A DNA stretch of 64,000 nt from Actinokineospora inagensis DSM 44258 (GTDB taxonomy: Bacteria > Actinomycetota > Actinomycetes > Mycobacteriales > Pseudonocardiaceae): contig NZ_AXWW01000017.1 of NCBI RefSeq assembly GCF_000482865.1, positions 50,761-114,760 of the forward strand, written 5' to 3'. Positions 1-48,459 of this stretch are shown piece after piece. The translations under genes were made by a program, and so were the position numbers. The notes beneath the pieces are model-generated. The model saw nothing but the letters and a program-made list of their open reading frames with translations. It had not been told where the DNA came from and did no database searches. Each line of letters starts with the position of its first letter. The stretch's first letter is position 1.

Positions 1-270
1 ATCTGGCGCCCGAGGCCGGCGTCGCCGAAGGCGACCAGGCCGAACCCCGAGGCGCAGCCAGGCCCAGAGCCCCCTCACACCAAGATCAACCGAGAACAAA
101 GCCCCCAAATACATACCCTAACCAAGCCCACCGACAAGATCGCCCCGCCGACCGACAACCATGATCAACCCGAACTTGAGCCCCTGAATACAAGCCTAGA
201 CGGACCCACCGACAGTCCACCCGGCTCATGATCAACCAGCAGCAAAGCCCCGAATACACAGCCTAGAACC
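1..270 (-). repeat. Composite intergenic repeat, locus A (modules Q and three P copies)
   Basis: Read on the minus strand this holds three copies of a ~42 bp module P (about 228-268, 161-200 and 80-121; each runs from a CTAGGCTGTGTATTC-like start to a GGTTGATCTTGG-like end), followed by module Q (about 1-75), which contains GTCGCC and a run ending GGCGCCAGAT at base 1. The same P then Q order occurs near 3.74-3.94, 41.05-41.25 and 47.87-47.99 kb. The left window edge cuts the locus, so any element M or T array beyond base 1 is not visible. No reading frame is supported here. Confidence 0.8.
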
Positions 271-442
271 CACCACCGACAAGATCAGCCACCCGGCAAG
301 ACCACCCCGCCAACCACCACCGTGGCGACCGTCTCGATGAGATCATCCCCCACAACCCCACCCCCTCCCCCTACACTGGGCCAGTTCGTCGAACGACCGA
401 CAGGAGTGCGGGTTCCGTGCGCGCGGTGCGGCAGAGAAGCCC
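271..442. other. Non-coding stretch upstream of the first CNNM gene
   Basis: The first part (to about 385) is A/C-rich on the plus strand, continuing the bias of the repeat block on its left, and then returns to ordinary GC-rich sequence. I see no convincing gene, promoter box or RNA gene. Confidence 0.4.
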
Positions 443-3740: not shown

Positions 3741-3938
3741 TAGGTTGTGTATTCGGGGGCTCTTGTTTGGATTGATCTTGGTTCTTGGTCGGTGGGCGTT
3801 CTTGTCGGTGGGCTTGGGTAGGCTGTGTATTCGGGGGCTTTGTTCTCGGTTGATCTTGGTGTGAGGGGGCACTGGGCCTCGCTGCGCTCGGGGTTCGGCC
3901 TGGTCGCCTGGCGGCGACGCCGGCCTCGGGCGCCAGAT
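3741..3938 (+). repeat. Composite repeat locus B: modules P, P and Q
   Basis: Two copies of module P lie at 3741-3780 and 3819-3860 (both contain TGTGTATTCGGGGGCT and GATCTTGG). Module Q at about 3861-3938 contains GTCGCCTGGCGGCGAC and ends GGCGCCAGAT. The orientation is opposite to locus A and the same as the 41 kb locus. Confidence 0.85.
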
Positions 3939-3950
3939 TTTGCGGGCTGT

Positions 3951-4099
3951 GCCCGCTGGGGTGAAGTTGTTTTGTTTGGGGCCCCTAGCGGTGGCCTGGG
4001 TAAGGCTAAAAGCCGGGGCCACTGGAAAGACGTGGCCTTACCCGCCTGCCGGCTTAGGCCACCGCCTCCCCCAAACAAAACAACTTCACCCCAGCGGGC
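3951..4099 (+). mobile_element. Element M, copy 1: 149 bp MITE-like element with 31 bp terminal inverted repeats
   Basis: The left end (3951-3981, beginning GCCCGCTGGGGTGAAG and ending TTTGTTTGGGG) and the right end (4069-4099) are perfect 31 bp inverted repeats. The ~87 bp interior also pairs with itself (GCGGTGGCC/GGCCACCGC; GGGTAAGGC/GCCTTACCC), so the whole element can form one long hairpin. It encodes nothing. Relatives lie at 47708-47855 (inverted) and 48116-48263. A matching locus without M is at 41248-41256. A non-autonomous mobile element or a structured RNA/DNA module are both possible; no transposase is present in the window. Confidence 0.75.
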
Positions 4100-4108
4100 G
4101 GTTGGGAT

Positions 4109-4480
4109 CGGCGGGTTTCGAGGCGCGCGGTGCCGGTTGGTGGGCTTCGTCGATGGGCGGGGGGTTTGTTTTGAGGCGCGTGGGGTGGGTTGGCGGCCTT
4201 TGTCGATGTAGGCGGGTTTCGAGGGGCGCGGGGCGGGCTGGCGGCCTTCGTCGATATGGGGTGGGGGTTCGAGGCGCGCGGTGCGGGAGTGGGGCTTCGT
4301 CGATCTGGGCCGGCCTTTTGGGGCGCGTGGGTGGGAGCGGCACTTCGTCGATGTGGGGTGGGTTTTTGAGGCGCGTGGTGCGGGGGTGGTGCGTTGTCGA
4401 CGTTAGGCGGCCTCCTAGACGCGCGGTGCGGGAGTGGGGCTTCGTCGATGAGGGGCGGGGTTCGAGGCGTGCGGTGCGGG
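4109..4480 (+). repeat. T array, locus B: about eight imperfect ~48 bp tandem units
   Basis: Units run roughly GGCGGGTTTCGAGGCGCG, GGTGCGGGAGTGGGG, CTTCGTCGAT. The last ten bases are the best conserved part. Unit length varies from 44 to 55 bases, so no reading frame is kept and coding is unlikely. The plus strand is extremely G/T-rich: by hand count 49 of 60 bases are G or T at 4141-4200. Related arrays are at 41.26-41.47, 47.56-47.70 and 48.27-48.38 kb. About 100 bases of non-coding G-rich sequence, ending in a GGGTGGGGGT tract, separate this array from rnhA. Confidence 0.8.
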
Positions 4481-4588
4481 GTGGTCGCAGGGTGTTTTCG
4501 TTTGGTGGATTGTTGGTCGGGTGCGGGGCAAGTGTGGGGCGGCGGTGGGGGGCGGGGTGGGGGTGAGGGTGGGGGTGGGGGTGGGGCG

Positions 4589-8681: not shown

Positions 8682-11555
<2,874 letters not shown>

Positions 11556-11637
11556 GGGCGAACTCCTCGGGCTGGTGCGGGGGTCGGGCCGGACACCGGA
11601 TTTCGCCGGTGTGGCCCTCCCCCTCTGTCCGTGCCCG

Positions 11638-11840
11638 TGGGCGCCTGAGAGCTTCGTCGGACGGGTCCGGACCCGGGGCCGACTTGCACCTTCGGCGGGG
11701 CTCCCCGGTGGTGCCGGGTTGCCCGCTTTCCAGAGACGTCTCGCCCACGCGGTCTTTTTGCCTGAGAGATTCCGGGGAGGATTTGCTCCTTCGGCGCCGT
11801 GCCGGTCTGGTGGACCGGACGGACTCTCCCGCGCGGGTTC
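11638..11840 (-). promoter_or_regulatory. Tandem glycine riboswitch upstream of gcvP
   Basis: On the minus strand, aptamer 1 (about 11840-11760) contains GCGGGAGAGTCC, then GCGCCGAAGGAGCAA, and ends CTCTCAGGCAAAAAG. Aptamer 2 (about 11748-11638) contains GGGCGAGACGTCTCTGGA, GCCGAAGGTGCAAGTC, and ends CTCTCAGGCGCCC. These are the hallmark glycine-riboswitch elements, duplicated with a short linker. The riboswitch lies 80-280 bases before the gcvP start, so glycine very probably induces gcvP. Confidence 0.95.
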
Positions 11841-11919
11841 AGCGACGCCTGACGAGTCTAACCCGACACCGGGTGCAACTCGATTGCGGCCGGGCTGTGT
11901 TTTCGGTCCACTGGCGATC

Positions 11920-25916: not shown

Positions 25917-26552
25917 ACAACAGCCCCGCGTACGGGGATGACTGGTTGATGTGGTTAGGCGGCCGGTGATTGTGGGGAACAGCCCCGCGCGTGCGGGGAT
26001 GACGCCCACGGAACCAAGGCATCCTTGGGGATGCCCGGAACAGCCCCGCGCATGCGGGGATGACCTGTTGGATTTGTTCGGCGTGCTTGATCTGCTGGGA
26101 ACAGCCCCGCGCGTGCGGGGATGACGCCCACGGAACCAAGGCATCCTTGGGGATGCCCGGAACAGCCCCGCGCATGCGGGGATGACCTGTTGGATTTGTT
26201 CGGCGTGCTTGATCTGCTGGGAACAGCCCCGCGCGTGCGGGGATGACTTGAACACGTTGGGGATCTTCATGACCCCGTCGGGAACAGCCCCGCGCGTGCG
26301 GGGATGACGCCGAGACCGTCGTCGCCATCACCCCCGCCTACGGAACAGCCCCGCGCGTGCGGGGATGACAAGGCCGATCAGGCAATCGGCGACGAGAGCA
26401 CAGGAACAGCCCCGCGCGTGCGGGGATGACAAGTCCACTCAGGATGGTGCGCAGGTTGGGCAGGGAACAGCCCCGCGCGTGCGGGGATGACAGGTCCGCG
26501 GCTATGACCTGCCGGAGGGTGTGCGGAACAGCCCCGCGCGTGCGGGGATGAC
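25917..26552 (-). CRISPR. Type I-E-like CRISPR array: 10 intact repeats plus 1 degenerate, 10 spacers
   Basis: 28 bp repeats (plus strand begins GGAACAGCCCC and ends CGGGGATGAC) start at 25976, 26037, 26098, 26159, 26220, 26281, 26342, 26403, 26464 and 26525. A shortened copy lies at 25917-25942. All spacers are 33 bp. On the minus strand the repeat reads GTCATCCCC, a GC hairpin, then CTGTTCC. This matches the type I-E layout (5 nt before and 7-8 nt after the hairpin), so the array is transcribed leftward, with the leader near 26553 and the decayed repeat at the trailer end. Spacers at 26004 and 26126 are identical, as are those at 26065 and 26187. No cas gene is in the window. Confidence 0.97.
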
Positions 26553-26639
26553 ACTTGATGACCAGGGGCGCTATAAGCCAAGCCCTCCGTTCTCATTCAC
26601 TTTCGCGGTCGGCTTGCCCATCCCCATCAGCAGAGCCCC
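26553..26639 (-). promoter_or_regulatory. Putative CRISPR leader/promoter between the array and the uvrB stop
   Basis: Only 87 bases separate the last intact repeat from the uvrB stop codon. On the minus strand GGCTTATAGCG lies about 20 bases before the first repeat and could be a -10 element. It is the only place a leader can sit, since the degenerate repeat marks the other end as the trailer. Confidence 0.5.
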
Positions 26640-41047: not shown

Positions 41048-41466
41048 TAGGCTGTGTATTCAGGGGCTCAAGTTCGGGTTGATCATGGTTGTCGGTCGGC
41101 GGGCGGATCTTGTCGGTGGGTCGGTCTAGGCTGTGTATTTGGGGGCGTTGTTGGCGGTTGATCTTGTGTGAGGAGGCTCTGGGCCTCGGCTGCGCCTCGG
41201 GGTTCGGCCTTGTCGCCTGGCGGCGACGCCGGCCTCGGGCGCCAGATAAAACGGGCGGTTGGGATCGGCGGGTCCCGAGGCGCGCGGTGCAGGTTGGTGG
41301 ACTTCGTCGATGTGGGTGTTGGTTTCGAGGCGCGCGGTGCGGGGGTGGGGCTTCGCCGATGGGGCGGGGGTTTTGTGGCGCGCGGGGGGCAGGGGTGGGG
41401 CTTGGCCGATGGGGCGAGGGTTTTGTGGCGCGCGCGGGGGGCAGGGGTGGGGCTTCGTCATGCGGT
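41048..41466 (+). repeat. Composite repeat locus C: P, P, Q, no element M, then T array
   Basis: P copies are at 41048-41089 and 41126-41168, module Q at 41169-41247, and about four T units of ~47-52 bp at 41264-41466. The Q-to-T junction (41248-41263) lacks the ~149 bp M element found in the same place in locus B and in both halves of locus D, leaving only AAAA then CGGGC, the outer bases of an M end. The plus strand is strongly G/T-rich. Confidence 0.85.
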
Positions 41467-47536: not shown

Positions 47537-47557
47537 ACCCCCAACCACACACCCCTC

Positions 47558-47700
47558 ATCGACGAAGCTCCACTCTCGCACCGCGCTCTTCGAGACCCCA
47601 CGCAAATCGACGAAGCTCCACTCTCGCACCGCACCCCGAGAAACCCACCCCGAATCGACGAAGCCCCACCCCCGCGCCGCGCGCCTCGGGACCCGCCGAC
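47558..47700 (-). repeat. T array, locus D left arm (three units, inverted)
   Basis: On the minus strand there are three ~48 bp units of the T type, each ending CTTCGTCGAT or close to it. They are the mirror image of those at 48272-48380. The plus strand is A/C-rich here. Confidence 0.8.
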
Positions 47701-47707
47701 ACCAACC

Positions 47708-47855
47708 GCCCGTTGTGGTGAAGTTGTTTTGTTTGGGGGGAGCGGTGGCCTAAGCCGGCGGGCGGGTAAGGCCACGCTTTCCAGTGGCCCCGCCTTTTTG
47801 CCTTACCCAGGCTGCCGCTAGGGGCCCCAAACAAAACAACTTCACCACAACGGGC
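47708..47855 (-). mobile_element. Element M, copy 2 (148 bp, inverted relative to copy 1)
   Basis: Perfect 31 bp terminal inverted repeats, 47708-47738 and 47825-47855. Compared with copy 1, the outer part of the arms reads GCCCGTTGTGGTG instead of GCCCGCTGGGGTG, and the change is present in both arms. The interior is the reverse complement of copy 1's. Non-coding. Confidence 0.8.
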
Positions 47856-47867
47856 ACTACAGCTTTA

Positions 47868-48103
47868 ATCTGGCGCCCATGGCCGGCGTCGCCGAAGGCG
47901 ACCAGGCCGACCCCCGAGCGCAGCGAGGCCCAGAGACCCCTCACACCAAGATCAACCCGGACGAAAGCCCCCGAATACACAGCCTAGACGAACCCACCGA
48001 CAGTCTCGGGGGCATGAGGGCCCACGCAGGGACTCTGAGCCTCGGCTGCGCCTCGAGACTCGGCCTTGTCGCCTGGCGGCGACGCCGGCCATTGGCGCCA
48101 GAT
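47868..48103. repeat. Locus D centre: Q (minus), P (minus), Q (plus)
   Basis: Module Q on the minus strand at 47868-47940, one P copy on the minus strand at 47946-47990, then a second Q on the plus strand at about 48022-48103. These join two outward-pointing half-loci, so the region from 47.56 to 48.38 kb is one large imperfect palindrome. Confidence 0.8.
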
Positions 48104-48115
48104 AAAAGCGGTGGT

Positions 48116-48263
48116 GCCCGTTGTGGTGAAGTTGTTTTGTTTGGGGCCCCTAGCGGCAGCCTGGGTAAGGCAAAAAGGCGGGGCCACTGGAAAGCGTGGC
48201 CTTACCCGCCCGCCGGCTTAGGCCACCGCTCCCCCCAAACAAAACAACTCCACCACAACGGGC
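48116..48263 (+). mobile_element. Element M, copy 3 (148 bp)
   Basis: 31 bp terminal inverted repeats, 48116-48146 and 48233-48263, with one mismatch in the right arm (AACTC for AACTT). Same orientation as copy 1 but with copy 2's GCCCGTTGTGG arm type. It is 260 bp from copy 2, in inverted orientation. Confidence 0.8.
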
Positions 48264-48271
48264 GGTTGGTG

Positions 48272-48380
48272 TCGGCGGGTCCCGAGGCGCGCGGTGCAGG
48301 TTGGCGGACTTCGTCGATATGGGGTGGGTTTCTCGGGGTGCGGTGCAAGAGTGGAGCTTCGTCGATGGGGGCGTGGGTTT
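48272..48380 (+). repeat. T array, locus D right arm (two and a half units)
   Basis: Two full units and one partial unit of the T type, with GGCGGGTCCCGAGGCGCG and CTTCGTCGAT. The first unit is nearly identical to the first unit of locus C. No gene is seen between here and the livF terminator. Confidence 0.8.
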
Positions 48381-48425
48381 TGGGCGTGCGGTGCGTAGAG
48401 GTGTTGGGGAGCTGTAAAATGTAGA

Positions 48426-48459
48426 AAGGGCCGCGCCACTGGTGTGGCGCGGCCCCTTG
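48426..48459 (-). terminator. Terminator of the liv operon
   Basis: GGGCCGCGCCAC (48428-48439) pairs with GTGGCGCGGCCC, a 12 bp GC stem with a short loop. Read on the minus strand it is followed by TTTCTACATTTTAC. It lies 16 bases past the livF stop. Confidence 0.88.

Follow-up and report, generated by a model that had tools for sequence, protein, structure and literature searches.

The 64,000-nt stretch analysed here, hereafter the window, comes from Actinokineospora inagensis (contig C13:50761-114760 of a 7.28-Mb genome, called G000 below), a soil bacterium of the Pseudonocardiaceae, a group of antibiotic producers. It carries three copies of an imperfect palindrome, all of them between predicted convergent genes: copy 1 is flanked by a predicted gene without family match and an RNase H gene, and copies 2 and 3 by a thioesterase-fold gene and an ABC transporter gene (five of the six window proteins examined match Pfam). 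The copies and their flanking modules are as follows, with bit scores from R2, a covariance model of 49 sequences (alignment A4).

1..290 (outer limit approximate), minus strand: left module belonging to another copy, with its hairpin immediately outside the window on the upstream side (C13:50472-50619; L061 6473-6620)
3743..3950, plus strand: left module of copy 1, made of two ~78-bp units (GTGTATTCGGGGGCT...), a short hairpin GTCGCC..GGCGAC and GGGCGCCAGAT
3951..4099, plus strand: hairpin copy 1, CTGG type; family-model strand minus; R2 124.5 bits on minus, 64.2 on plus
4100..4484, plus strand: right module of copy 1, an array of ~48-bp units (TRF 4110-4484, period 48 x 7.6)
41050..41457, plus strand: left and right modules fused without hairpin (empty or emptied site), junction near 41248-41258
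47550..47707, minus strand: right module and 48-bp array of copy 2 (TRF 47550-47682, period 48 x 2.8)
47708..47855, minus strand: hairpin copy 2, TTGT type, inverse orientation; model strand plus; R2 127.6 bits on plus, 62.7 on minus
47856..48115, no strand assigned: left modules of copies 2 and 3, head to head (from the sequence and a left-module profile match, locus L164)
48116..48263, plus strand: hairpin copy 3, TTGT type; R2 127.4 bits on minus, 58.6 on plus
48264..48430 (outer limit approximate), plus strand: right module of copy 3 (from the sequence and a right-module profile match)

The original prediction of three units of 148-149 bp with 31-bp inverted arms holds at these positions: copies 1, 2 and 3 measure 149, 148 and 148 bp, with arms complementary at 31/31, 31/31 and 30/31 positions, and copy 2 is inverted relative to the other two. 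The single arm mismatch, in copy 3, is a G-U on the minus strand. The matched difference between the arms of different copies, CTGG against TTGT, is present as described. All three copies fold far below shuffled energy (z = -10.6, -9.6 and -10.6 against dinucleotide shuffles, with 0/200 shuffles as good), but an asymmetric internal loop interrupts the hairpin, which is no plain palindrome. According to our structural model, a single strand would form a P1 stem of ~18-31 bp, an asymmetric loop that carries AGGGG on one of its sides, a P2 stem and a branched head starting with TAnnCT; the palindrome forms the centre of the element and spans 112-157 bp in the copies read.

The left module (~78-bp units with GTGTATTCGGGGGCT, followed by a short GTCGCC/GGCGAC hairpin and GGCGCCAGAT) recurs beside the hairpin, as does the right module, which corresponds to the first unit of the 48-bp array. 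At copy 1 the left units start at 3743 and 3821 and are conserved across 55 aligned copies, and the first array unit on the right is conserved in flank alignments. Because the sequence on both sides repeats along with the hairpin, the 31-bp arms are not the ends of the repeated unit. Among 51 left modules in the G000 stretches, 44 are full, two have both modules but no hairpin, and five are split, cut or broken. Both hairpin-less sites (window 41248-41258 and L060:7357-7273, minus strand) retain a single C[GA]GGC that is duplicated in some filled sites and not in others, and they fit a deletion as well as a pre-insertion state. Lone left modules were considered as additional empty sites; the three checked (C14, C17, C31) bear diverged or contig-cut hairpins.

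Flanks are also shared in sister species, where two left-flank types account for 71 of 91 copies; the remaining 20 are unclassed, some with quite other flanks. The sister genome G003 also has runs of two to five tandem hairpins, and in several of these runs the terminal one or two are inverted; an inverted pair within 500 bp, like window copies 2 and 3, is found at 7/20 loci of other species. Some sister arrays (left flanks of L083, L129 and L137; L183 near 2100) have a tandem unit that includes the opening 11-13 nt of the hairpin arm (GCTCGATGGGGCG or nearly so), as though this site gave rise to hairpins or were their target. A DnaA-box-like TTGTCCACA occurs near sister hairpins (L077-L155), 140 times in one orientation and 6 in the other within 700 bp of 91 hairpins, overlaps possibly being counted twice; near 62 G000 copies the counts are 3 and 1.

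The expectation of further copies in the host and its relatives was amply borne out. A 22-nt arm core has 135 forward and 139 reverse matches in G000 at up to two mismatches (control 0) which, at an expected two matches per copy, corresponds to ~135 copies. An interior pattern has 97 + 95 matches in G003, or ~190 copies, and 72 + 89 pattern matches were obtained in G005, with controls of 0 in both. The arm-core pattern also matches Actinokineospora diospyrosa, A. globicatena and A. terrae, and a G005 copy used as query has a perfect counterpart (100% identity) in A. diospyrosa. The draft assembly apparently breaks at the repeat: four G000 contig ends (C2:103, C8:187457, C13:165538 and C15:129536) fall inside a hairpin copy or less than 500 bp from one. 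In two G000 hairpins (L037:8400-8860 and 11450-11900) other DNA that by eye resembles an insertion sequence, and that contains N runs, splits the copy. Two further ideas about the distribution were abandoned: the tandem arrays of G003, among the matches listed, appeared grouped at 3.0-4.5 Mb near the contig midpoint, which is not the expected terminus because dnaA lies at 1.386 Mb; and the core pattern occurs in five viral contigs, but their stretches gave no R2 match at E 0.01.

With genes predicted by a home-made codon model, and with G000 copies split by an insertion sequence or N run counted as two pieces, none of the 53 placed pieces in G000 and none of the 88 in sister loci overlaps a gene; six and 23 of these, respectively, lie at stretch ends and were left unclassed. 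Convergent gaps hold 27/47 classed pieces in G000 and 45/65 in the sisters, compared with 94/546 and 77/413 gene intervals taken from the same element-centred stretches (Fisher 5e-9 and 9e-16). Divergent gaps, by the same comparison, hold 3/112 pieces versus 169/959 intervals, and 37/112 pieces lie in tandem gaps. There, the model strand is sense in 9 and antisense in 9 cases in G000 (by hand) and 9 and 10 in the sisters, hence 18 to 19 in total. A role in 3'-UTRs was discarded, there being no orientation bias to neighbouring genes. Avoidance of genes, convergent gaps and indifference to orientation are as expected of a non-autonomous mobile element.

Presence also differs between species. The gap of window copies 2 and 3, bounded by 4HBT thioesterase and ABC transporter genes, was compared with its orthologues: it contains two hairpins in G000, one in G003 and none in the nine other genomes where both genes were detected (G004, G005, G006, G008, G009, G010, G011, G013 and G014); in the last five genomes, where the stretch yielded no left gene, there was no hairpin either. 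At this same gap, four sister genomes (L165, L166, L167 and L168) carry another intergenic repeat, AGTCTACCGG..GATCTTG..CACATGTGGACAACTTCTGTCG-like, which occurs twice in G005.

Two covariance models delimit the family. R1 was built from 24 minus-strand copies, and A4, the alignment behind R2, was hand-picked: five sequences come from G000, seven from sisters and 37 from 15 other genomes, the latter being 34 of the 60 distant matches plus three second copies in the same loci. With the best eight candidates per genome scored, R1 at E 1e-6 matches 26/386 family genomes, that is 15/16 Actinokineospora (G006 being the sole one without a match at this threshold) and 11 genomes of six other genera. 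R2 at 1e-5, scored likewise, matches 14/397 genomes of the order; 13 belong to the same family, adding two genera, and a single match lies in another family (E 1.6e-7). Together the models reach eight other genera of the family beyond Actinokineospora, matches in G080, G490, G383, G226 and G218 being counted by model score rather than read as sequence. On 718 kb of G000, full copies reach R2 scores of 102-134 bits when read as minus and 55-69 as plus, and no match outside known copies is better than E 0.29. For the hairpins, Rfam provided no family at gathering score in the window or in 12 distant loci; the only match on them, mir-4776, is below cut-off.

The copies share a common plan (long stem, AGGGG loop, second stem, TAnnCT), with arms altered yet complementary. 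In A4, double changes occur at 35/37 pairs, and 94.5% of 1735 cells are paired, versus 68.3% in shuffled and 40-44% in slid alignments. The A4 counts of pairing, polarity and motifs carry a bias in this direction, since the distant copies were found by a model that rewards paired bases and was made from minus-strand sequences. The motif [TC]AGGGG(C/T)CCC is present in 50/60 distant copies, and the AGGGG loop is unpaired in all ten single folds shown. Homology of the most distant copies rests on the shared plan and is less certain. In G147 (genus g10), one copy matches copies of Actinokineospora G009 at 84-86% identity; against copies of the 15 other genomes compared it reaches 51-71% (at most 70.5%), and shuffled sequences give ~49%. 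Its likeness to the G009 copies suggests transfer. In L225, a distant-genus hairpin lies ~250 bp from a tmRNA gene (1052-1185 and 1442-1815).

Arm evolution was followed in two sets found by BLAST, 62 copies in G000 and 91 in the sisters (at least 125 bp, 74% identity), four of the latter being dropped from the mismatch count for more than eight arm mismatches, which leaves 87. Nearly all of the sister copies lie in loci, at least 79 stretches, fetched with an arm pattern that fixes left-arm positions 18-24 and 28-31, with 25-27 partly free, so left-arm states are narrowed and the right arm is free. G000 arm positions 6 and 9 are matched in 59/62 and 61/62 copies; on a tree of hairpin interiors, which ignores recombination between copies and was read for the positions listed, a mean of 5.8 and 6.0 of six independent pairs go the same way. 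Sister position 17 behaves alike, with 4/4 pairs going the same way (53 TT, 32 CC, 1 GG and 1 GT copies), while sister positions 9, 25 and 27 are mostly uncoupled on the tree (means of 0.1/6, 1.3/5 and 0.0/6). The matched arm change proposed originally is supported at the first three positions, and independent drift of the arms is in part borne out at the last three; yet the one-sided states at sister positions 12, 14, 25 and 27 leave a G-U (G-T) on the minus strand by 149 to 2. Sister position 9 is the exception, with C.C in 20/87 copies.

Arm mismatches amount to 24 G-U on minus, 3 on plus and 3 others in the 62 G000 copies, and to 152, 4 and 35 in the 87 sister copies. Pooled over these 149 copies, which were not found by covariance models, 176/183 wobble-type mismatches give a minus-strand G-U (G-T) when counted by copies; counted by hand as distinct position-and-type events, the minus type leads 10 to 5. 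With wobbles going one way, folding of one strand looks selected. RNAalifold gives -149.7 for minus and -129.3 for plus over 81 distinct sister sequences, and the sister consensus fold contains 375 G-U and 28 A-C cells on minus against 25 and 85 on plus. In G000, 20 of the 24 minus-type mismatches are at position 14 alone, RNA energy slightly favours plus (-108.6 vs -106.6, minus being better in 18/62), and consensus folds contain 188 G-U and 39 A-C on plus, 76 and 17 on minus, at nearly equal energies (-159.8 and -161.5). With DNA energies, the model strand folds better in 85/91 sister copies, 34/62 in G000 and 39/60 elsewhere. Strand-specific folding is well supported in the sister species; in G000 the case is weak, and the fold results there, together with a partly paired promoter-like motif described below, speak against use of one particular strand in the genome that holds the window.

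The genomes record a high copy number, placement in convergent gaps, presence or absence at an orthologous gap, flanking modules, covarying arms and, in the sisters, conservation of one folded strand. Selfish-looking placement, gain or loss at the species level, possible transfer and a version of its own in each species lead us to regard the hairpin, with somewhat better than even confidence, as a high-copy, non-autonomous, ERIC/BOX-like mobile intergenic element of the Pseudonocardiaceae. The one-directional intermediates of the sisters point to a strand that is read in folded form. Such an element would depend for its movement on a trans-acting enzyme that recognises the folded strand, either as ssDNA or as RNA; convergent-gap placement would then reflect tolerance, not a job, and arms would stay complementary through selection for the fold, perhaps aided by arm-to-arm copying. 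Counting against mobility, neither a target site duplication nor an autonomous partner nor a mobilising enzyme was found, and the flanks recurring outside the arms blur what the moving unit would be. In the G000 stretches examined for a transposase with the same ends, partial matches are split or cut copies. A genome-wide protein search for the RAYT-type Y1 transposase (PF01797) gave no match in 14/16 Actinokineospora genomes, including G000 and the sisters, and matches in G001 and G012; mobilisation by RAYT is ruled out for those 14. A simple MITE bounded by its arms, as first suggested, finds no support: flanks recur, with neither target site duplication nor matching transposase found. The initial choice between transposon, structured RNA and cruciform now leans to a mobile element with one folded strand, and away from a symmetric cruciform in the sisters. 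What began as a three-copy curiosity has become a repeat found across the family, one whose structure is conserved and whose paired changes form a natural record; the covariance models make this family searchable, and RNA versus single-stranded DNA is directly testable.

To our knowledge, few ERIC- or BOX-like repeats, themselves elements without an established mode of spread, offer a comparable clue to the folded strand. The nearest known kinds are ERIC (also called RU-1) and BOX; features of a MITE proper, or of the REP palindromes that RAYT reads as a folded single strand, are not all present. ERIC is likewise an interspersed palindrome, usually located between genes and close in length at 127 bp (PMC2759123, in the part available, as RU-1), with 30 to 711 copies per genome (from an excerpt of PMC10969869), and the present family too is a high-copy, intergenic long palindrome. 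ERIC belongs to another phylum, and our family is set apart by description: long, species-divergent outer arms, the AGGGG loop, flanking arrays and one-strand conservation in the sisters. The consulted sections of PMC3049150 describe BOX, RUP and SPRITE of Streptococcus pneumoniae as stem-loop repeats over-represented between convergent genes, BOX as built of modules, among them a boxB unit that can be missing or present several times, and one of these repeats as wanting an easily comparable empty site; unlike in BOX, the variable tandem units here flank the hairpin instead of lying inside the stem-loop. The 31-bp arms are terminal inverted repeats as in MITEs, but modules recur where unrelated flanks would be expected, and full G000 copies have a G+C of 0.57-0.66 whereas MITEs are described as AT-rich (same sections of PMC3049150). 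Correia/NEMIS elements of Neisseria are small TIR-bounded hairpins, cleavable by RNase III once transcribed (PMC10969869, same excerpt); our GC-rich family differs in its recurring flanks beyond the arms and in having no target site duplication shown. REP/REPIN are extragenic palindromes as well; REPs being 20-40 bp (PMC3733652, as far as available), our hairpin is several times longer, and PF01797 occurs in only 2/16 Actinokineospora genomes. Titles and abstract openings in the literature on Actinokineospora repeats and palindromes, Pseudonocardiaceae MITEs and actinobacterial palindromic intergenic repeats contain no account of the element, and in the accessible part of PMC6273641 'palindrom' denotes CRISPR only; this suggests a family of small mobile elements so far undescribed within the literature searched.

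An unlikely alternative, though the strongest, is that the minus strand of each copy is transcribed into a structured non-coding RNA. Its long hairpin would be the functional product, as such or after processing by RNase III, and the copies would have spread either as an RNA gene present many times or as hairpins at the 3' ends of mRNAs. The near-exclusive G-U intermediates on one strand in the sisters are a classic sign of RNA, motifs and plan are conserved across genera, and Correia and ERIC elements act in mRNA (PMC10969869, excerpt as above). However, there is no bias of orientation to transcribing genes (18 sense vs 19 antisense), a hairpin resembling an intrinsic terminator separates the gene end from copy 2 in the window sequence, Rfam provides no family, and a promoter-like motif, noted in a scan limited to the hairpin, lies within it such that transcripts would miss the 5' arm.

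This motif leads to another reading, which we consider doubtful and less probable than an RNA. Frpo and sso are long strand-specific hairpins with promoter-like motifs, and the element could be a folded ssDNA promoter or primer origin of this kind, scattered by a mobile element with a single-stranded DNA stage. In A4, read on the model strand, T is found in 49, T in 34 and G in 33 of 49 sequences (-35-like TTG), then T in 39, A in 47, C in 43 and T in 44 of 49 (-10-like TAnnCT), the latter lying at the P2/head junction, unpaired in the consensus fold. TT[GC]-N18-20-TANNNT occurs in the first 75 nt of 89/91 sister and 35/60 distant copies, against letter-shuffle means of 2.8 and 1.9, the copies being related and hence not independent. 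In Mycobacterium tuberculosis, 73% of primary starts have TANNNT as their -10 motif (PMC3898074, in the part available), and Frpo is used only as a single strand (PMC7736820, from an extract). It is equally doubtful that up to ~190 hairpins per chromosome would, when single-stranded, mimic an open promoter (duplex -35, exposed TANNNT) within an undescribed ssDNA mobile system, with arms that vary freely yet in step and each species having its own version. Against these readings, the motif, present in sisters and many distant copies, is found in only 5/62 G000 copies (shuffle mean 2.1); in some single folds (L207, L266) its AAGC pairs with a downstream GCTT; DNA energies favour the model strand clearly in sisters only; and no carrier element was seen around the chromosomal, dispersed copies. 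Frpo and sso are parts of conjugative or rolling-circle elements, whereas the present family has more than 100 dispersed chromosomal copies.

That the hairpin is a DNA-level cis element between convergent genes, such as a cruciform, a bidirectional terminator or a chromosome-structure site, appears improbable. The strong preference for convergent gaps and the recurrence of inverted pairs (window copies 2 and 3, 7/20 loci, G003 arrays) would suit such a role, but presence varies between species at the orthologous gap, a cruciform is strand-symmetric where sister copies are not, no T-run follows the hairpins in the window sequence, and 37/112 classed pieces are in tandem gaps, with 3 in divergent ones. 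Least of all do we believe that the palindrome stays complementary through arm-to-arm copying (template switching) alone, with the fold unused: matched blocks do differ among copies of one genome (G188 L222, L253, L254) and the single CGGGC of a hairpin-less site could mark slippage, but copying would yield A-C as often as G-U per strand, against the 176/183 seen one way and the 149 to 2 at sister positions 12, 14, 25 and 27, and the AGGGG loop stays unpaired in ten single folds.

Two other features of the window lie apart from the hairpins. A CRISPR-like array, which we take to be type I-E, occupies 25975-26553, with repeat GGAACAGCCCCGCGCRTGCGGGGATGAC and a 122-bp stretch repeated exactly 2.2 times (TRF). 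A glycine riboswitch is located at 11740-11841 on the minus strand, upstream of a glycine dehydrogenase gene (8682-11555).
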